Part shown: positions 17,788-25,702 of the stretch, piece after piece | Layout: each line of letters opens with the position of its first letter | Numbering within the stretch: position 1 is the stretch's first letter | Source: Pseudoxanthomonas sp. CF125 | GTDB lineage: Bacteria > Pseudomonadota > Gammaproteobacteria > Xanthomonadales > Xanthomonadaceae | Direction of reading: 5' to 3' | Assembly: GCF_900104085.1 (NCBI RefSeq) | Contig: NZ_FNLD01000002.1 | Location: 434,001 to 498,000 of the forward strand | Length of the DNA: 64,000 bases | The notes under the pieces: model-generated | What the model was told of the DNA's origin: nothing | Database searches by the model: none | Seen by the model: only the letters and a program-made list of their open reading frames with translations | Made by a program: the position numbers and the translations under genes

Positions 17788-18453
17788 ATGAACTTGTTGC
17801 TGGTGGAAGACGATGAAATGCTGGCCGAGGCCGTGCGCGCGGGTCTGGAACAGAATGGCTGGCATGTGGACTGGGTGGCGGATGCCGGAGCGGCCAGGGC
17901 CATTCTGGTCGACCATCCCTACGATGCGGTGTTGCTCGACCTGGGCCTGCCCGGCGGTTCGGGACTGAGCGTGCTCTCGAATCTGCGGGCCCGCTACGAC
18001 GCAACGCCGGTGCTCATCATCACCGCGCGCGACAAACTGACCGACCGCATCGGCGGGCTCGATGCCGGGGCCGACGACTACATCGTCAAGCCCTTCCAAT
18101 TGGACGAACTGTTCGCAAGATTGCGGGCCGTGATCAGGCGCAGCCAGGGCCGGGTGTCGCCGGTGCTGACCTTCAACGGGATCAAGCTGGACCCGGCGCA
18201 ACGGCGAGTGACGCACCGGGACGAATCGGTGGCGCTGAGCGTGCACGAGTACCGCACGCTGATGCTGCTGATGGAGCGGCAGGGCCGGGTCGTCACCCGC
18301 GAGCAACTCGAGGAGGGCATATACGGTTCCTCCGGTACGATCGAGAGCAACACGATCGCGGTGTATATCCACCAATTGCGGCGAAAGCTGGGCGAAGAGG
18401 CGATCGTGACCGTGCATGGATTCGGCTACCGGATGGGCGGCAACGGCGCATGA
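17788..18453 (+). CDS. OmpR-family response regulator (PmrA/QseB-like)
   Basis: A 221-residue regulator. The receiver domain has acidic residues E7-D8-D9 in M-N-L-L-L-V-E-D-D-E, phospho-acceptor Asp51 in V-L-L-D-L-G-L-P-G-G, T/A in I-I-T-A-R-D and the K in Y-I-V-K-P-F. A winged-helix DNA-binding domain (about residues 125-218) contains S-V-H-E-Y-R-T-L-M-L-L and the recognition region S-N-T-I-A-V-Y-I-H-Q-L-R-R-K-L. The ATG at 17788 is preferred over an upstream in-frame start. It overlaps the kinase gene by 4 bases. Confidence 0.93.
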   Translation: MNLLLVEDDEMLAEAVRAGLEQNGWHVDWVADAGAARAILVDHPYDAVLLDLGLPGGSGLSVLSNLRARYDATPVLIITARDKLTDRIGGLDAGADDYIVKPFQLDELFARLRAVIRRSQGRVSPVLTFNGIKLDPAQRRVTHRDESVALSVHEYRTLMLLMERQGRVVTREQLEEGIYGSSGTIESNTIAVYIHQLRRKLGEEAIVTVHGFGYRMGGNGA

Positions 18454-19805
18454 ATTCCATTCGCGGGCGCCTGACCCTCGCATTGCTGTTGTGCATCGTG
18501 CTGTCGTGGATGACCTGGCTGTGCTGGCAGGCCATGCAAATGAATCGCGAACAGACCGGTCTGTGGGACGCCTCTTTGCGCGATATCGGAACGCAAGTGC
18601 TGCGGTCCATGCCGGACAGCGTTACCCAGCTGCCCAATGCTCCGACGCAACCGCAGCCGTCCAGGTTCCAGGACGGGAAAATGAGTTTTCAGGTCTGGGT
18701 GGACGGACGCAACGTGGTGCATTCTCCGGCCGCGCCCGCTGGACCGTTGAAGCCGGATTTCCGCGACGGTTTCGGCACTCATCGGATCGGCGACGATATG
18801 TGGCGCGTCTACAGCATCACCGACCGTAAACGGGGCATCGTGGCGCAGGTCGGGCGCACCCAGGCCACGTTGAACCGCGAGCTGCACAACTTGAAACGCC
18901 TCAGCCTGGCCGTGGCCGCGCTGATCTTCTCGCTGCTGGGATTGATGATCTGGATAGTGGTGCGCTGGTCGCTGGCGCCGGTGACCGCTTTGCACGACAG
19001 TTTGCTGGCACGGCGGCCGTTGGATCTGACTCCCTTGCCGACCGAGGCCATGCCTACCGAAGTGCGCCCGCTGGTGGATTCGTTCAATAAGCTGCTTGCG
19101 CGCGTCGACGCGGCCGTGCAGAACGAGCGCCGTTTCACCGCCGACGCCGCGCACGAACTGCGGACGCCTTTGGCGGTGCTGGCCGCGCATACCGATGTCG
19201 CCCTGCGCGCCACCACCATCGAGGAAAAGGATGCCGCGTTGCGGCGTTTGAGCAGCGGCGTGCAACGCAGCGCCCGCTTGTCCGAACAACTGTTGGATCT
19301 GGCCAGGCTGGATGCCGGCGCCAGTACGGAAGGGTTCGGCCAGGTCGATCTGTCGGAGCTGGTGGTGCTGGTCGTTCGCGACTTCGAAGCGCTGGCCCGG
19401 GACCGTGGGCAGCATATTTCGCTGCAGACCGAGCCGGGCGCGATCCTGGGCGATATCGATCAACTGGGCATCCTGTTGCGCAATGTGATCGACAACGCGG
19501 TGTGCTACGCCGGCGAAGGCGGGCAGATCGCGGTGTCGTGCCGGCCCGGGCGGTCGAACGATATCCGCGGCATGCGTCTGGAGGTGGCTGACGATGGCCC
19601 CGGTGTCGCGGAAGAAGATCGTGCCCGCATTTTCGACCGCTTCTATCGAGCGCCCCGCAGCACGGGCCGCGGCAGCGGAATCGGTTTGTCGCTGGTCGCG
19701 CAGATCGCGCAATCGCATGGCGCATGCATCGAGGTGGGGCCAGGACTCAAAGGCCGCGGCTTTGCTATCTCCGTTTTCTTCGCCGGTGCAGCTGCGGAAC
19801 ACTAA
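18450..19805 (+). CDS. Two-component sensor histidine kinase (QseC/PmrB-like)
   Basis: A 451-residue inner-membrane kinase. The first membrane helix is at residues 8-26, then a periplasmic sensor of about 120 residues and a second helix at 150-171. A HAMP-like linker leads to the HisKA motif F-T-A-D-A-A-H-E-L-R-T-P with His235. The ATPase domain has N in N-V-I-D-N-A, D-D-G-P-G-V and G-S-G-I-G-L-S-L. Start overlaps the response regulator stop (ATGA), indicating translational coupling. The stop lies against the decayed integron integrase on the opposite strand. Confidence 0.93.
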   Translation: MNSIRGRLTLALLLCIVLSWMTWLCWQAMQMNREQTGLWDASLRDIGTQVLRSMPDSVTQLPNAPTQPQPSRFQDGKMSFQVWVDGRNVVHSPAAPAGPLKPDFRDGFGTHRIGDDMWRVYSITDRKRGIVAQVGRTQATLNRELHNLKRLSLAVAALIFSLLGLMIWIVVRWSLAPVTALHDSLLARRPLDLTPLPTEAMPTEVRPLVDSFNKLLARVDAAVQNERRFTADAAHELRTPLAVLAAHTDVALRATTIEEKDAALRRLSSGVQRSARLSEQLLDLARLDAGASTEGFGQVDLSELVVLVVRDFEALARDRGQHISLQTEPGAILGDIDQLGILLRNVIDNAVCYAGEGGQIAVSCRPGRSNDIRGMRLEVADDGPGVAEEDRARIFDRFYRAPRSTGRGSGIGLSLVAQIAQSHGACIEVGPGLKGRGFAISVFFAGAAAEH

Positions 19806-20182
19806 GCAACTGGATATGGCCGCCAAATCAACTGGAAACCTCTGTCAGCAGAACTGAACAGCGGCACCAGCCTGGACAGGCGAGAGCCTAGGCCTTGAGT
19901 CCAGCATGTGGTTGGAACGAGATCCAGGGCCAGCACCTCCCGGTACAAGAACAGCAAGGCGGCCAAGACCTGATTCTGGGTGCTAGGGGCAACTCGGTGC
20001 CGCTGGACCAGATCGCTCGGAAAATATTCGATGTCCTTGCCGCCTAATTCGTGTGGGTGCCGGCATCCGTTGATCTGGATATACCGGCGAACCCAATACG
20101 GATAGGCCTGTTCCGCCCACAAACTGTAGTGCTTCACCCGCAATCTGCGCCGAACTTCATCGAACAGTCTGGGCCGGTGGCA
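19802..20182 (-). pseudogene. intI: Integron integrase remnant (N-terminal domain only)
   Basis: The minus-strand reading frame from 20182 down gives R-P-R-L-F-D-E-V-R-R-R-L-R-V-K-H-Y-S-L, then E-Q-A-Y-x-Y-W-V-R-R-Y-I, R-H-P-H-E-L-G and A-P-S-T-Q-N-Q-V-L-A-A-L-L-F-L-Y-R-E-V-L. These are the SAM-like N-terminal core-binding domain of IntI tyrosine recombinases. A TAG at 20183-20185 interrupts the frame upstream with no proper start left. Similarity ends near 19918; the catalytic domain with its R-H-R-Y residues and the IntI-specific patch are missing. Orientation away from the array and position just before it are those of a genuine integron integrase. Confidence 0.85.
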
Positions 20183-20382
20183 CTACGGATCCTGGTTTGC
20201 TTATGACCGCGACATCTTCCACCGTGGGAATTAGACGGCCTTCTTGCCGTTAAACACCCGCATTGCCCCATGCCCTGCCGATCCGAGAAATCGCCGCAAC
20301 CTTTTTTGTCGTATGGGGAAAGCCTGATTGACGAGCCCCCAGGCCACACCCACAATCCGCGCTACACCCCACTTTGGGGTCT

Positions 20383-20396
20383 AATCATAGTTAGGC
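20383..20396 (+). other. attI-like insertion point at the head of the cassette array
   Basis: A G^TTAGGC core (20390-20396) lies between the integrase remnant and the first cassette, with no full attC upstream of it. This is where attI x attC recombination would place the first cassette. The stretch 20183-20389 holds no gene; it is the usual position of the attI region and the integrase and cassette promoters. Confidence 0.55.
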
Positions 20397-20406
20397 CGCA
20401 GAAACA

Positions 20407-20649
20407 ATGAGACGCGAGACTGTCCTTGCCATACTTCGTTTTCAGCTTCTCGCGGGCATAGTCTTTGCCATCTTTGGCTCTGCATTCGGATTTCTTATCT
20501 ACTTCCAATTTCATGATTCGGGCGTACCCAATGGCATAAACGAACCGCCGAGCGCTACGAGCGTTGCCTTGATTGTCGCAGGCATTTCTATCGTCGTCGG
20601 AGGCTTGGCTTCTTATGTGGCAAGAGCGTGCATCAAGAGGTTCCGCTAG
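20407..20649 (+). CDS. Cassette 1: two-TM small membrane protein
   Basis: An 80-residue protein with two strongly hydrophobic segments (about residues 10-33 and 51-72) separated by a short polar loop, and a basic C-terminus. It starts 11 bases after the attI junction core. Not recognised; the layout fits a small inner-membrane protein. Confidence 0.7.
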   Translation: MRRETVLAILRFQLLAGIVFAIFGSAFGFLIYFQFHDSGVPNGINEPPSATSVALIVAGISIVVGGLASYVARACIKRFR

Positions 20650-20655
20650 GCTGCG

Positions 20656-20715
20656 GCCTAACAATTCATTCAAGCCGAACCCGCTTCGCGGGTCGGCTTA
20701 ATTCAGGCGTTAGGC
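20656..20715 (+). repeat. attC1
   Basis: A 60-base site with GCCTAAC and GTTAGGC ends and a CCCGCTTCGCGGG terminal hairpin between the AAGCCGA and TCGGCTT arms. Confidence 0.93.
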
Positions 20716-20728
20716 CGCTAGGGACACT

Positions 20729-21052
20729 GTGAGCAATCCTTATAAAGCCTCGCCCAGCAAATTACCTGAGTCGCCCGGCAGTGGGCCGCGCGTCGTCACC
20801 TCCATGTTTAGATTCCTCGCTTTCGCACTGACAGGGCTGGCTTCATTCCTGCTCGGCTGCCTTGCGACAGTCTTTGCTCTGTTGCGTGTGTTCGCGCCAC
20901 CGGCAAACTGTCCATCACCATGCGATGCGCCCGCCTACGTTGCATTGGGTGTCGCAATGTTCGTGGCACCGGTAGTCGGTGTACTGTTCTCTGCTGGAGG
21001 CATCTATGCTTTATCCCGGCTTTGGCGTCGCAAGTCCGGCGCAGCGGCCTAA
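20729..21052 (+). CDS. Cassette 2: two-TM membrane protein
   Basis: A 107-residue protein starting at GTG. A Pro/Ser-rich cytoplasmic-like N-terminus is followed by hydrophobic segments at about 27-53 and 70-97, with a Cys pair (N-C-P-S-P-C) in the loop between. The TAA stop lies inside attC2. Not recognised. Confidence 0.65.
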   Translation: MSNPYKASPSKLPESPGSGPRVVTSMFRFLAFALTGLASFLLGCLATVFALLRVFAPPANCPSPCDAPAYVALGVAMFVAPVVGVLFSAGGIYALSRLWRRKSGAAA

Positions 21053-21106
21053 CAATTCATTCAAGCCGAAGCCGCTTCGCGGCTCGGCTTAATTCAGGCG
21101 TTAGGC
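21047..21106 (+). repeat. attC2
   Basis: A 60-base site, nearly identical to attC1 and attC8, with a GCCGCTTCGCGGC tip. The cassette 2 stop codon overlaps its first bases. Confidence 0.93.
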
Positions 21107-21107
21107 A

Positions 21108-21419
21108 ATGTATTTCAGCATCAGCGAGTACCCAGGTCTCAAAGGCATGAGCAAAGCTGATCAGCGTCAGTTGATCACGAGCGCGGCCCGCGAGTTCGAT
21201 AAGGGGGCACGTTTCAGATTCTGGGCAGCGGCGGCCATCTTGTTCGTGCTACCAACCGTCTTCGTCATATCAAGCCTGGCTCCAGCTTGGCTTGGGGCAC
21301 GGCCGTGGCTGGCAGGAGTATTGGGGGGACTTGGCTTTTACATATTCTTGCTATGGGACATAAACGGTCCCACTCTAAGAGCGGTCAAACGGCATGTAGC
21401 TCAACGACCCATTCCCTAA
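21108..21419 (+). CDS. Cassette 3: two-TM membrane protein
   Basis: A 103-residue protein whose ATG lies 2 bases after the attC2 core, so the ribosome-binding site would have to come from the attC sequence. The N-terminus is soluble and charged. Hydrophobic segments are at about 36-60 and 66-83. Its stop TAA overlaps attC3. Not recognised. Confidence 0.62.
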   Translation: MYFSISEYPGLKGMSKADQRQLITSAAREFDKGARFRFWAAAAILFVLPTVFVISSLAPAWLGARPWLAGVLGGLGFYIFLLWDINGPTLRAVKRHVAQRPIP

Positions 21420-21502
21420 CAATTCATTCAAGCCGAGCCCGCATCGTTACGGCACCGAGCGGGCAGTTGGTCGGGCGGGCCGGCTTAATTCAGGCGTTAG
21501 GC
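21414..21502 (+). repeat. attC3
   Basis: An 89-base site with CCCTAAC and GTTAGGC ends. Its central hairpin is longer than in attC1 and carries GC-rich complementary arms. Confidence 0.88.
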
Positions 21503-21507
21503 CCCTT

Positions 21508-21855
21508 ATGAAGCTCCGTAATGCGTTGTGGGCAGAAATCGTAAGGAGTCACCTTTGCTGGCTCGGGGCGTGCCTTCTCGTATTCGCAGGCCTCGCACTT
21601 CTACCCAAGGATTTCTCGCGGATTATCTGGATTCCACTGGCCTGCCTGGCTATCGCCATTCCGTACGGGCTATTAGTGGGGCGGATTGTGTGTCCGCTTT
21701 GCGAGTATCCGTTTTACAAGGTTGGCTTCTTTCGCATCAAGTTCGGTAGCGGCAAGTACCGCATCAATTATTGTCCCCACTGTGGCGTCAGCTTAGACAC
21801 TGTGGCGGGCCCTAACAATTCATTCAAGCCGAGCCCACATCAGGGCGGCGCCTAA
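21508..21855 (+). CDS. Cassette 4: membrane protein with zinc-ribbon-like cysteines
   Basis: A 115-residue protein with two hydrophobic segments (about 15-33 and 39-58) followed by C-P-L-C and, 26 residues later, C-P-H-C, a four-Cys zinc-ribbon spacing. The reading frame runs through the left half of attC4, so the last residues (N-N-S-F-K-P-S-P-H) are encoded by the recombination site. Not recognised. Confidence 0.68.
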   Translation: MKLRNALWAEIVRSHLCWLGACLLVFAGLALLPKDFSRIIWIPLACLAIAIPYGLLVGRIVCPLCEYPFYKVGFFRIKFGSGKYRINYCPHCGVSLDTVAGPNNSFKPSPHQGGA

Positions 21856-21925
21856 GTGCGCGCCTTCGGCTATATTTGCACCCAGTCGCCGCCTGCTGCG
21901 AGCCGGCTTAATTCAGGCGTTAGGT
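21810..21925 (+). repeat. attC4
   Basis: A 116-base site with CCCTAAC and GTTAGGT ends; the arms are conserved but the central loop is long and unrelated to the other sites. Confidence 0.85.
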
Positions 21926-21930
21926 TTCAC

Positions 21931-22443
21931 ATGAGACTTCTGTTGCTCTTCATTGCCTTATTCACCATGCCGTCGGCCTTTGCTGGTAAAGCCATGCCAT
22001 TAACTATCCCGAATATTGTCGAGAATGATCGTTGGTCATTGGCTGAGGGCACGCACAACGACAAACCTCTTGTAATCCGGTTCCGCGATGAGTTTCTCAA
22101 TAAGCCAGACCTAAGCTCTCACCCTCGCCTTGTTAGGGTGGTTTGGTCATATCAGGCCAACACCAGCGGTATGCCGGGTTCTGATGCAAGCGATCAAATG
22201 GGAGTCTTTGAGGACCGACTAGTTGCAGCCGTAGAGCCGAGCCAAACAGCTGTGCTTGTTGCCGTCCTCACCAATGACGGACAAAGAGAGTGGCTCTTCT
22301 ACACGCCGGATGTCTCTGAGTTCGGTCGTCGTCTTACCGAAATGCCTCAAGAGAAAGACCGCTACCCAATCGATATATCTACGGAGAGCGACCCAGAGTG
22401 GTCTACTTTCTACGACAACATTCTTCCCGGTGTCGCGGAGTGA
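21931..22443 (+). CDS. Cassette 5: secreted DUF695 protein
   Basis: A 170-residue protein with a clear signal peptide (MRLLLLFIALFTMPSAFA). The mature part shows the DUF695 layout: W-S-L-A-E-G near the start, L-V-I-R-F-R, G-M-P near the middle, F-E-D-R-L, a strand ending T-N-D-G-Q-R-E-W-L-F-Y, and a late D-P-E-W-S-T-F-Y-D. DUF695 is of unknown function. The ATG is 5 bases after attC4. Confidence 0.78.
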   Translation: MRLLLLFIALFTMPSAFAGKAMPLTIPNIVENDRWSLAEGTHNDKPLVIRFRDEFLNKPDLSSHPRLVRVVWSYQANTSGMPGSDASDQMGVFEDRLVAAVEPSQTAVLVAVLTNDGQREWLFYTPDVSEFGRRLTEMPQEKDRYPIDISTESDPEWSTFYDNILPGVAE

Positions 22444-22444
22444 A

Positions 22445-22504
22445 ACCTAACAATTCATTCAAGCCGAAGCCGCTTCGCGGGCCGGCTTAATTCAAGCGTT
22501 AGGC
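22445..22504 (+). repeat. attC5
   Basis: A 60-base site with ACCTAAC and GTTAGGC ends. It has one change in the conserved right arm (TTCAAGC instead of TTCAGGC). Confidence 0.92.
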
Positions 22505-22507
22505 GGC

Positions 22508-23038
22508 ATGGACGAGTTAATCGCTGAGCTCAAAGAGAGAAAAGCTGCGGCTTCGCTTTACGCAGATGATTCTCTGCTTGGCGGACTGGCTCCACCACTT
22601 AGTCTCAGCGAGATTGAGCTTGCTGAAGCATCTTTAGGTTTCAAGCTTCCAGACTCACTTCGGCGCATCTATTCCGAGGTCGCAAATGGCGGGTTTGGAT
22701 ACTCATACGGCCTACTTGGACTAAATGGCGGCCCTCGCAACGAGGATGGCCAAGACGCAGTTGGCCTCTACATGACCTACCGGGAGAGCGATCCAGATGA
22801 TCCGCTCTGGCAATGGCCATTTGGCCTCCTTCCCATTGGGCATCTTGGTTGCGCAATGTTCCACTGCATTGACTGTTCTGACCCAGCCGGGGCTGTTGTT
22901 TGGTTCGAGCCGAATCCACATGAGCCAGGGCAGTCCTGGAGCGATTCATTTATTCCGTTTGCTCCCTCGTTGGTCACTTACTTTCAGGCATGGCTAGACG
23001 GCAAAGATTTATTCGAGGTGTTCGCGGATGGCACCTAG
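22508..23038 (+). CDS. Cassette 6: SMI1/KNR4 (SUKH) family protein
   Basis: A 176-residue protein with the SUKH signature. The helix L-S-L-S-E-I-E-L-A-E-A-S-L-G-F-K-L-P-D-S-L-R-R-I-Y is followed by the V-A-N-G-G-F-G turn, the W-P-F-G-L-L-P-I-G strand and the C-terminal S-F-I-P-F-A-P-S-L-V-T-Y-F-Q-A-W-L. Many SUKH proteins are immunity proteins against contact-dependent or secreted toxins. No toxin gene is adjacent, so this would be an orphan immunity gene. The stop TAG overlaps attC6. Confidence 0.85.
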   Translation: MDELIAELKERKAAASLYADDSLLGGLAPPLSLSEIELAEASLGFKLPDSLRRIYSEVANGGFGYSYGLLGLNGGPRNEDGQDAVGLYMTYRESDPDDPLWQWPFGLLPIGHLGCAMFHCIDCSDPAGAVVWFEPNPHEPGQSWSDSFIPFAPSLVTYFQAWLDGKDLFEVFADGT

Positions 23039-23147
23039 CAATTCATACAAGCCGAGCCCGCATCAGGTTCGATAACTTCGGTTGATTCTGGGTATTATCG
23101 GCTTCGGGACCGGTCCATTGCGGGCCGGTTTAATTCAGGCGTTAGGC
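23033..23147 (+). repeat. attC6
   Basis: A 115-base site with ACCTAGC and GTTAGGC ends and a long central region; the left arm carries ATTCATACAAGCCGA. Confidence 0.82.
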
Positions 23148-23150
23148 CAT

Positions 23151-23456
23151 ATGTTCGAGCTTGCATGCCCCCACTGCGCTACCAAACTGACACCGAAGCA
23201 GGCACTAGAATTCGGCACCGTAGCTCTCCCAATACCAGGCTCTTGGTGGCTACGTTGTCCTGGGTGCGGAAAAGGTAGTAATTTTCGAGCCGTCGATGGA
23301 GCCGTGTCCCAATACCAAGTTGACGGAGCACCTGGTCCCGACTGGCACGATTTGGGCACGGTTGCAGTCCCAGGACTGACCACGCGAATCGATCCAAGCT
23401 TTCTCCACGTTTGGTATCTTGGGGTCCACTACGAGTTCCCTTGCGGGCCGCCCTAG
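23151..23456 (+). CDS. Cassette 7: zinc-ribbon-like protein
   Basis: A 101-residue soluble protein with C-P-H-C at residues 6-9 and C-P-G-C about 30 residues on, a four-Cys metal-binding arrangement, then an acidic and aromatic C-terminal half. Start ATG is 3 bases after attC6. Not recognised beyond the ribbon. Confidence 0.68.
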   Translation: MFELACPHCATKLTPKQALEFGTVALPIPGSWWLRCPGCGKGSNFRAVDGAVSQYQVDGAPGPDWHDLGTVAVPGLTTRIDPSFLHVWYLGVHYEFPCGPP

Positions 23457-23470
23457 AGTCGGCTAGGCAG

Positions 23471-23538
23471 CCCTAACTATTCATTCAAGGGGAACAGCCA
23501 TCGTGCCGATGTCTGTCCCCTTAACTCAGGCGTTAGGC
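23471..23538 (+). repeat. attC7
   Basis: A 68-base site with CCCTAAC and GTTAGGC ends. Its arms (AAGGGGAACAG and CTGTCCCCTT) differ from the AAGCCGA/TCGGCTT arms of the other seven sites. Confidence 0.88.
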
Positions 23539-23557
23539 GCGTTTAGGAGGTAATCGC

Positions 23558-24004
23558 ATGTCACGGAAAGTATCCGCAATCATTGCCATTGCAATCGGCG
23601 GCGGGCTGGCGCTCCTACTTACCTGGTGCTGGGCATATATCGCAGCGATGAATCCACTTCCCAGCCTGCTGGCCAAGAGCGGGCTGAGAGGTGCTGGCTT
23701 CTGGACGGTCATCGCGTCAACCGACTTTCTTATCAACGTGATCTTGTGCCTTCCGGCAGCTTGGGCGCTATGGCGGCTTGGGGCACGTCACATCCAGGCC
23801 AATACGCTGCTGGCGCTTGTGTCATTTGCCATTGCGGGCGCGGTGACGGTTGGTCTGCCAGCCTTCTCATACGGTCTCCTCATCTGGATTACTTACCTAC
23901 TACTTCTTGCCTCATTGCCAGTTGCCGTGTGGATGCTGTCAAAGTTCATAGGCAACGCGCCTGACAATTCATTCAAGCCGAAGCCGCTTCGCGGCTCGGC
24001 TTAA
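23558..24004 (+). CDS. Cassette 8: four-TM membrane protein
   Basis: A 148-residue protein with hydrophobic segments at about 6-30, 50-72, 83-105 and 108-130. The frame runs into attC8, which encodes the last residues (D-N-S-F-K-P-K-P-L-R-G-S-A). A GGAGGTAA ribosome-binding site precedes the ATG. Not recognised. Confidence 0.7.
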   Translation: MSRKVSAIIAIAIGGGLALLLTWCWAYIAAMNPLPSLLAKSGLRGAGFWTVIASTDFLINVILCLPAAWALWRLGARHIQANTLLALVSFAIAGAVTVGLPAFSYGLLIWITYLLLLASLPVAVWMLSKFIGNAPDNSFKPKPLRGSA

Positions 24005-24018
24005 TTCAGGCGTTAAAT
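23959..24018 (+). repeat. attC8 (terminal)
   Basis: A 60-base site like attC1 and attC2, but the R'' box is GCCTGAC and the R' end is GTTAAAT. The array stops here; 24019-24287 holds no gene or further attC that I can see. Confidence 0.88.
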
Positions 24019-24287
24019 GACTGCTTCTGGCCGGAGGCGGTTATTGAACTGCTAGCCAAAAGCTGAACTCAGGGTGTGGGTTCTCGCCTGTCCCGCCTAA
24101 CGCGGCTGTTCGGTTCATTTGGCGCCCGTGTGCAGTTGATTGCCGTTTATTAGTGCAGGCTGGGTGGCGAGAGCGCCATCGCTAGATGCGCATCGGGCAA
24201 TCTGCGGTGCGAAACCTTGGCTATCGCCTCAATGCAGCGTTCCAGCAACGGGCTCGACCAGTTTGCTGCGACGCAGCATAATGCCGT

Positions 24288-25547
24288 ATGGCCCAAGATT
24301 CCCTCATCCCCAATACCGGTGCGCCCAATACCAATACAGATCTGACGCCACGCCAAGTGGGGCTGATCCTGTTCGCGCTGACCCTGGGCGGCTTCGCCAT
24401 CGGCACCAGCGAATTCGCCAGCATGGGCTTGATGCCCAACATGGTGGCCTCGCTCGGTGTGACCGAACCGCAAGTGGGCCACCTGATCAGCGCCTACGCG
24501 CTGGGCGTGGTGGTCGGCGCGCCGTTGCTGGCCATCCTGGGCGCCGGCTGGACACGCAAGACGTTGCTGCTGTCGCTGATGGGTTTCTATGCGCTTGGCA
24601 ATCTGGCCAGCGCGTTGGGTCCGACCTACCACAGCTTGCTGCTGTTCCGTTTCATCGCCGGCCTGCCGCATGGCGCCTACTTCGGCGTGGCGGCGTTGAC
24701 GGCGGTGGCGATCAGCCCGCCGCACCGGCGCGGCCGTGCGGTCAGCATCGTGATGCTGGGCCTGACCCTGGCGATCCTGATCGGCAATCCGCTGGCGACG
24801 TGGGTGGGGCAACTGGTCGATTGGCGCTGGATCTATGCTGCGGTGTCGATGATCGCGGTGGCTACTGCTGTACTGCTTGCGGTATGGCTGCCGGCGCATG
24901 TCGATGGCCCGAAGGCGAAACCGCTGGACGAATTGCGTGCGTTCAACCGGCTGCCCGTGTGGCAAGCGTTGGGAATAGGCGCGATCGGTTTCGCCGGCAT
25001 GTTCGCCGTCTTCAGTTATCTGGCACCGACGATGCTGGAAGTGACGCGGGTGTCGGCGGCATGGATTCCGTTGGGGCTGGTCGGATTCGGCGTCGGCGGG
25101 GTGATCGGCAATTTCGCCGGCGGCTGGCTGTTCGACCGTTTCAAACTGCGCGGCGCGTGGGTGGTGCTGGCATGGGCCCTGGCGATGCTGCTGTTGTTCC
25201 CGCTGATGGCGAAGTGGCTGCCGACCCTGCTGCTGGCGACCGTCGCCATAGGCCTGATGGGCGCGCTGGGGCCGATCCTGCAGTCGCATCTGATGGACGT
25301 GGCCGGCGATGCGCAGACGCTGGCGGCGGCCTCGCACCATGCCGCGTTCAACACCGCCAACGCGCTGGGCCCCTGGCTGGGCGGCATGGCCATCGTCGCC
25401 GGCTATGGTTGGACATCGACAGGTTATGTCGGCGCCGCCACGGCAGTGATCGGACTGTTGATCTATGTGTGGGCCAGCAAGACAGCGCACGCAGCGCGCG
25501 CGCTTGCCGACGAGCCGCCGGCTCCGGTCGCCTGCGAGTCGTCCTGA
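24288..25547 (+). CDS. MFS transporter (DHA1 / AraJ-like exporter)
   Basis: A 419-residue inner-membrane protein with twelve hydrophobic segments. Near the start it has the DHA1-type motif G-T-S-E-F-A-S-M-G-L-M-P, and the loop motif A-Y-A-L-G-V-V-V-G-A-P. The loop-2/3 basic motif is partly degenerate (G-A-G-W-T-R-K). Similar proteins export arabinose, nucleosides or drugs by proton antiport; the substrate is unknown. It is the first gene beyond the integron array. Confidence 0.88.
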   Translation: MAQDSLIPNTGAPNTNTDLTPRQVGLILFALTLGGFAIGTSEFASMGLMPNMVASLGVTEPQVGHLISAYALGVVVGAPLLAILGAGWTRKTLLLSLMGFYALGNLASALGPTYHSLLLFRFIAGLPHGAYFGVAALTAVAISPPHRRGRAVSIVMLGLTLAILIGNPLATWVGQLVDWRWIYAAVSMIAVATAVLLAVWLPAHVDGPKAKPLDELRAFNRLPVWQALGIGAIGFAGMFAVFSYLAPTMLEVTRVSAAWIPLGLVGFGVGGVIGNFAGGWLFDRFKLRGAWVVLAWALAMLLLFPLMAKWLPTLLLATVAIGLMGALGPILQSHLMDVAGDAQTLAAASHHAAFNTANALGPWLGGMAIVAGYGWTSTGYVGAATAVIGLLIYVWASKTAHAARALADEPPAPVACESS

Positions 25548-25702
25548 CGACGCCAACGGACCACAGCGCGACGTAAACCGATCTTCCGTCGCGGCTCCCC
25601 GCGTTATATCCCAGCACACCTGAGGGTGAGTGACTTTCGCCACGTCCTGGCGCCGACCCGATGCTCTAGTCTGCGGGAATTCCGCCTCGGGAGACTACGT
25701 CA

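Follow-up and report, generated by a model that had tools for sequence, protein, structure and literature searches.

A chromosomal integron array with a broken integrase gene in Pseudoxanthomonas sp. CF125 and its likely place in a distributed integron

Arrays of integron cassettes that lack an integrase have been proposed to represent degraded integrons, and in most integrons the promoter and the landing site for cassettes, attI, are present in a single copy. Here we analyze a stretch of 64,000 nucleotides from Pseudoxanthomonas sp. CF125 (assembly GCF_900104085.1, contig NZ_FNLD01000002.1, positions 434,001 to 498,000), referred to as the window, which carries an array of eight cassettes closed by attC sites next to a remnant of the integron integrase gene intI. 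We consider it likely that this array represents an orphaned head belonging to a distributed integron, i.e., to a system in which a single integrase, IntI, serves several heads consisting of a promoter and an attI site in trans, and that intI has been lost in this genome.

The closest described systems are the sedentary chromosomal integrons of Xanthomonas, where intI is often truncated or absent and about half of the genomes contain clusters of attC sites lacking an integrase (CALINs) away from the intI locus (PMC12444791). The case studied here resembles Xanthomonas in its dead intI and its additional CALINs. On the other hand, intI is located downstream of ilvD in Xanthomonas, with two exceptions (PMC12444791), whereas the intI locus of CF125 and P. 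sacheonensis lies beside a gene for an AlkZ-like glycosylase, and while no attI is reported at CALINs in the portion of the Xanthomonas study examined here, many Pseudoxanthomonas arrays are headed by attI and a promoter-like leader. An attC array without a functional intI nearby is also what the present locus has in common with arrays described with IntegronFinder 2.0 (PMC9024848). In a Shewanella prophage, a CALIN with its own attI lies beside a complete integron, and this is the sole printed case that we found of an integrase-less array headed in this way near a complete integron (PMC9892861). The Shewanella case concerns a single inactive prophage, whereas the arrangement in Pseudoxanthomonas is chromosomal, multi-copy and genus-wide and bears a predicted promoter. 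Displaced attI sequence is likewise seen in the Delta-attI-type gene cassettes of mobile integrons. There, however, a truncated attI replaces the attC of the cassette (PMC12901181), while in Pseudoxanthomonas a whole attI together with its leader stands ahead of the arrays. Work on accessory peptide deformylases states that strains with CALINs bearing such genes hold an integrase able to mobilize the respective cassettes (PMC12690207). A module of promoter and attI in many chromosomal copies was not described in the literature that we examined; most subscription journals were outside this search, so that its absence from print is not established.

The promoter-attI module and its copies

In the window, the array starts at a promoter-attI module that occupies positions 20324-20396 on the plus strand and scores 71.5 bits with R2, our sequence-only model of the module. 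It contains TTGACG (20328-20333), a 17-bp spacer, CACAAT (20351-20356), an ACCCC/GGGGT stem and the crossover G20390|TT, the latter within GTTAGGC (20390-20396). An attI-like junction at this place had been part of the original prediction, a short note made from the sequence of the window alone, and it is borne out by this motif and its conserved leader. In general, the module is about 74 bp long. Its elements, in order, are a TTGAC motif as -35 box, a spacer that measures 17-18 bp in the copies read, a box resembling a -10 element, which is CACAAT or CAGAAT in the nearest copies and ATACT-like elsewhere, then a short stem and finally the crossover G|TT. When the attI region of the window was blasted against 13 other attC-bearing stretches of the genome, seven copies were detected in six of the stretches. 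All elements from the TTGAC box through the CACAAT box and the short stem to the crossover are conserved in the aligned copies, which diverge beyond. Conservation peaks between the -35 box and the crossover and stops at the crossover, the spacer being variable, and several copies share an additional 25-30 bp or so upstream. The same layout was found in copies of P. sacheonensis, of G042 and of more distant species (G, C and L numbers denote genomes, contigs and loci of our data set). TTGAC proved invariant in 32 out of 32 aligned copies, for the extraction of which TTGAC was demanded 58-72 bp before a GTT, a demand that none of the 32 inputs failed. The ACCCC/GGGGT stem is paired in 98% of cells, and two of its pairs exhibit two-sided changes. 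From the conservation of these elements we infer promoter activity of the module. The stem is situated between the -10-like box and the crossover (A3 columns 45-60) and would fall near the 5' end of a cassette transcript.

The CF125 genome contains nine matches to R2, eight of which are followed by attC. The original prediction had spoken of an eight-cassette integron. This is correct insofar as a chromosomal array with an attI and a catalytically dead intI is present, and incorrect insofar as the array is not the only one in a genome with nine modules and 31 attC matches; the observation as such is confirmed, while its interpretation was too narrow and is supported in part. On the level of the genus (threshold E 0.01 or better), 89 R2 matches were found in 31 of 38 genomes. 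Thirty of them sit 175-202 bp from a match to the N-terminal part of IntI. The remaining 59, distributed over 29 genomes, have no such match within 700 bp and are termed solo sites. For two solo sites, the downstream sequence extends over no more than 300 bp, and these were excluded from the following count; behind 55 of the other 57 there is an attC on the same strand, at a distance of 175-1185 bp in 54 cases and of 3465 bp in the remaining case. In the stretches fetched for all 59, we found no attC on the opposite strand near the solo sites, and four sites have a same-strand attC upstream as well. Traces of intI were detected beside five of the 59 (tblastn with six IntI proteins, which stem from six of the 17 loci named for extraction), and an exact TTGAC box is in place at 49. 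More than one attI per genome, each ahead of its own attC, is what a distributed integron should exhibit, and this is what was found. When stricter filters were applied to wider samples, R2 matched in 19 of 151 genomes of the order and in three of 274 genomes of the class, namely CF125 itself and two members of its family. Outside the genus, several matches precede attC without any intI found in the stretch, e.g., in L229, L235, L241 and L248.

As to the surroundings of the copies, the solo attI sites in L097, L136 and L137 are immediately preceded by a gene of the XAC0095 family or a homologue of it, the assignment to the family coming from an NCBIfam match tested in L097. Such a homologue is also present in L101, where R2 has no match. 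P. sacheonensis contains a tandem duplication of a unit composed of upstream sequence, attI and cassette.

First cassettes and crossover cores at inherited heads

Clustering of the solo sites by their upstream flanks revealed one locus common to 13 species. In the two species inspected, a distance of about 310-340 bp separates attI from a hybrid kinase gene upstream of it, the product of which matches the NahK/ErcS family (tested for G048). Among the 12 species with a delimited first cassette at this head, none of the 66 possible pairs share 100 bp or more, and the same holds true for all seven pairs in smaller orthologous clusters. Two sharing pairs exist among all 51 delimited first cassettes, one formed by the C4 site of CF125 and a site of P. 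sacheonensis (96%, see below) and the other by two sites within G011, with 83% identity over 190 bp. Four solo sites without a mapped crossover were excluded from these comparisons and from those of the cores described below. Individual heads of CF125 were also compared with those of P. sacheonensis, a close relative in the same genus. At 391 kb on C5, the two species are 93% identical up to the crossover, then carry different cassettes and then the same downstream gene. In L097/L136, homology between them breaks off where attI has its crossover, and it is found again beyond the cassettes. The cassette behind the solo attI at 407 kb in CF125 has a counterpart with 89% identity in a different array of P. 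sacheonensis. Different first cassettes at orthologous heads suggest that solo attI sites may gain and lose cassettes while intI is located elsewhere.

The last six bases before the crossover of a solo site differ from those of the intI-linked attI in the same genome by 0.95 mismatches on average, compared with 2.56 for permuted genomes. Not one of 20000 permutations gave a value as low (41 pairs from 22 genomes, a set which does not include CF125 and in which a few visibly misplaced crossovers, in G011 and G052, were kept). For the orthologous set of 12, 18 of 20000 core permutations were as low. Over the 34 alignment columns at the 3' end, the solo sites of this set have a mean distance of 0.129 to their own intI-linked attI versus 0.198 to orthologous solo sites. 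The resemblance of solo cores to the resident attI hints at concerted evolution or co-adaptation.

A proposed distributed integron and competing explanations

Clearly, the multiplicity of the module, its place ahead of attC, its conservation and the occurrence of orthologous heads with different first cassettes are properties of the sequences themselves. On balance, and with some reserve, we favor the wider proposal that the integron of Pseudoxanthomonas and of several related genera forms a network across the genome, in which a single integrase gene is combined with several promoter-attI heads that are inherited and act as independent expression sites, that cassettes turn over in trans, that the attI cores co-evolve with the resident IntI and that CF125 represents such a network after loss of the integrase. 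The unit that is multiplied would be the module of about 74 bp. The integrase produced from one locus would act in trans on solo attI sites and insert circular cassettes there, the local promoter would transcribe them and each solo site would build its own array. Regarding the mode by which the module was copied, IntI-mediated reactions between attI sites, duplication along with XAC0095-family neighbors and decay of whole integrons are possible routes. Every copy of intI found in CF125 is broken and the heads, including that in the window, are therefore considered orphaned. After the loss, cassettes would be lost or kept, and would not be exchanged unless IntI arrives from outside.

The scattered heads could also have arisen by ordinary decay, such that several complete integrons once existed, each lost its intI and the attI heads persisted as relics that captured nothing afterwards. 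Consistent with decay, intI traces are retained at five of the 59 solo sites, and the CF125 genome contains intI remnants at three loci. Yet the head common to 13 species is devoid of any intI trace, and still not a single one of its 66 first-cassette pairs is shared, while -35 box and core have stayed recognizable. Decay could account for the origin of heads but not for the turnover that followed, and we regard it as an unlikely explanation for the whole. In principle, ordinary duplication might instead spread the module, or homologous recombination via repeated neighbors such as the XAC0095-family genes might do so, in which case its place ahead of attC would be a by-product. The neighbors of the solo attI sites in L097, L136 and L137 and the tandem duplication in P. 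sacheonensis fit this idea. However, the site common to 13 species adjoins a kinase gene and not an XAC0095 gene, and with attC behind 55 of 57 solo sites duplication explains the copying of the module rather than its use, which makes it quite improbable as a full account. Finally, scattered arrays may form without any attI when IntI inserts cassettes at attG-like chromosomal sites, as has been reported for E. coli (Loot et al. 2024, as cited in PMC12444791 and PMC12690207). In five genomes, 21 of 30 integrase-less clusters are without a recognized attI, as insertion at attG would predict. For arrays headed by the promoter-attI module, this explanation fails and is contradicted, and it is exceedingly improbable for the array in the window, which does not start directly at a non-attI chromosomal site but at the attI crossover.

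A number of observations weigh against the proposed distributed integron, the support for which comes from sequence. A scan of the window for consensus promoters gave 3 hits where 2.5 were expected by chance, so that support for the promoter consists in conservation. The R2 model was trained on members of the set that it later found, and it misses diverged attI sites, as it finds nothing in G014 although this genome has an intI. The module at C5:402553-402623 (L275) is apparently an empty head, with no attC within 3.5 kb behind it. Ten of the 59 solo sites do not have an exact TTGAC in place, four of them being the sites without a mapped crossover and six lacking the box. Shared ancestry is not accounted for in the core permutation, from which CF125 is absent. 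In the orthologous set, moreover, the intI-linked attI of the same genome is a strictly closer match than the nearest orthologue for only three of the 12 solo sites, with two ties. Furthermore, the site on C4 of the CF125 genome and its counterpart in P. sacheonensis (L105/L137) carry the same cassette with 96% identity and share 1.7 kb around and beyond attI; some heads must therefore be quiet. Last, a recognized solo attI heads only nine of 30 integrase-less attC clusters, comprising 32 of 68 attC sites. This count covers CF125 and four single-contig relatives, is restricted to clusters that have neither intI nor a remnant of it, scores the head at 814 kb as solo despite its intI trace and omits the CF125 attC at C3:691780, the inclusion of which results in nine of 31 clusters and 32 of 69 attC sites. 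Other routes must therefore exist, and the model does not cover all CALINs.

If the distributed integron proves true, a distant integrase feeds those arrays that possess a landing site and a promoter, and such arrays are live sites of expression. Several cassettes could be first in line at the same time, which would relax the limit that a single array sets on expression, and surveys that ignore attI would misclassify such arrays. The origin and the continued usefulness of CALINs thereby become directly testable.

The window locus and its host genome

The array is flanked on the left by a gene at 18450-19805 (plus strand), which we read as encoding a sensor histidine kinase-like protein. Its product is 97% identical at the amino acid level to that of P. 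sacheonensis, where the same gene flanks the interval, while 40 relatives, a set without P. sacheonensis, contain no close orthologue (best 47%). Homology to the P. sacheonensis flank stops at 19917 and homology to intI of that species starts at about 19920, marking the left junction (19917-19920). The remnant of intI lies on the minus strand at 19916-20164 and covers residues 2-84 of 315 in TIGR02249, in full agreement with the predicted position on the strand opposite to the cassettes. Pfam recognizes the N-terminal SAM-like domain alone, in line with the predicted loss of the catalytic half. Stop codons also interrupt the frame upstream of RPRLFDEV and, since the catalytic part is missing too, the gene is broken at both ends. 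The window thus lacks the functional intI of a complete sedentary chromosomal integron, while it does have attI adjoining the remnant and an array of attC-closed cassettes; with at least two attC sites and no intact integrase nearby, it conforms to a CALIN.

Eight attC sites on the plus strand were found with a covariance model: attC1 (20652-20719), attC2 (21043-21110), attC3 (21410-21506), attC4 (21806-21929), attC5 (22441-22508), attC6 (23029-23151), attC7 (23467-23542) and the terminal attC8 (23955-24022) with the R' box GTTAAAT. Their scores of 77.4-90.0 bits are circular because the model was built from these same eight sites, and a hidden Markov model was therefore rebuilt from other genomes (133 matches from five loci in five genomes, collected via a window-trained model and hence only partly independent). 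It recovered all eight with E values from 8.7e-24 to 7.2e-8, as expected for the eight attC-closed cassettes that had been claimed. When the bottom strands were folded as single-stranded DNA and compared with shuffles, z was -2.5 or lower for six sites and weaker for attC3 (-1.7) and attC6 (-1.4). Rfam yielded nothing between 19 and 25 kb of the window at E 0.1.

The eight cassette open reading frames (ORFs) all lie on the plus strand and encode 80-176 amino acids, with starts chosen by us. Cassette 1 (20407-20649, 80 amino acids), cassette 3 (21108-21419, 103 amino acids) and cassette 8 (23558-24004, 148 amino acids, extending into attC8) belong to no family over cut-off. Cassette 4 (21508-21855, 115 amino acids), which has CxxC pairs, and cassette 7 (23151-23456, 101 amino acids) show zinc-ribbon matches below cut-offs. 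DUF695 was assigned to cassette 5 (21931-22443, 170 amino acids, E 9.5e-26) and SMI1/KNR4 (SUKH-1) to cassette 6 (22508-23038, 176 amino acids); the six other proteins pass no Pfam cut-off. None of the eight was matched by PADLOC at E 0.01, and two that were tried against NCBIfam had no match. Among the loci compared, arrays of other species contain relatives of two cassettes, 2 and 6: that of cassette 2 (20729-21052, 107 amino acids) resides in a solo-attI array of G008 (L285; tblastx, 74% over 86 codons) and that of cassette 6 in an intI-linked array of G007 (45% over 77 codons). Directly after the last attC, an imperfect inverted repeat (TGACTGCTTC...GGCGGTTA) was seen by eye at 24019-24050. 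Homology to P. sacheonensis resumes at 24043-25592 (plus strand), where the ORF at 24288-25547 encodes, by our reading, a transporter of the major facilitator superfamily type.

The CF125 genome (4.2 Mb, six contigs, estimated 100% complete) was searched as a whole for intact intI, and no match to TIGR02249 reached the cut-off; the best matches below it were the two remnants of the N-terminal part, along with tyrosine recombinases of other kinds that matched in part. Since no match passes, no capture is expected now, and in this respect the array is frozen, as had been proposed. Remnants of intI are located in the window, at 78 kb and at 814 kb. P. sacheonensis (G044), by comparison, has a full-length intI frame, 359 amino acids between stops, beside the AlkZ-like glycosylase gene. 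The CF125 locus at C5:78 kb is orthologous to it, sharing 4.6 kb of upstream flank at 94%, but most of intI is missing from it with a segment of about 750 bp. This locus, rather than that in the window, is therefore probably the ancestral integrase locus of CF125. The breakpoints of the remnants in the window (19910-19940) and at C5:78 kb (L095 5010-5040) lie at most about 12 bp apart, the copies are 79% identical, and GGTTGGAA(T/C)GAGA occurs just ahead of the break in both flanks. The common breakpoint could be explained by a duplication in which the final bases of the AlkZ-like gene were included, although this is unproved.

Arrays were compared between species. The P. sacheonensis interval corresponding to the window array (L038 11468-16684) is occupied by other genes and has no attC match, and a clean empty site was thus not obtained. 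Because the genes found there are unrelated to those at 19917-24043, between the kinase-like and the transporter-like gene, this interval may be an insertion hotspot.

The 31 attC matches (E 0.001 or better) are scattered over the CF125 genome, all on the plus strand on C5 and all on the minus strand on C6 and C3. A link between array orientation and replication was considered and set aside, because the GC skew of the attC-bearing stretches is small and of mixed sign (-0.054 to +0.021) and single-contig relatives have arrays on both strands. In G048 (C1) and in G052, intI is matched twice by diverged sequences, which are 49% and 57-68% identical to the remnant in the window, and each of these genomes may possibly hold two integron systems.

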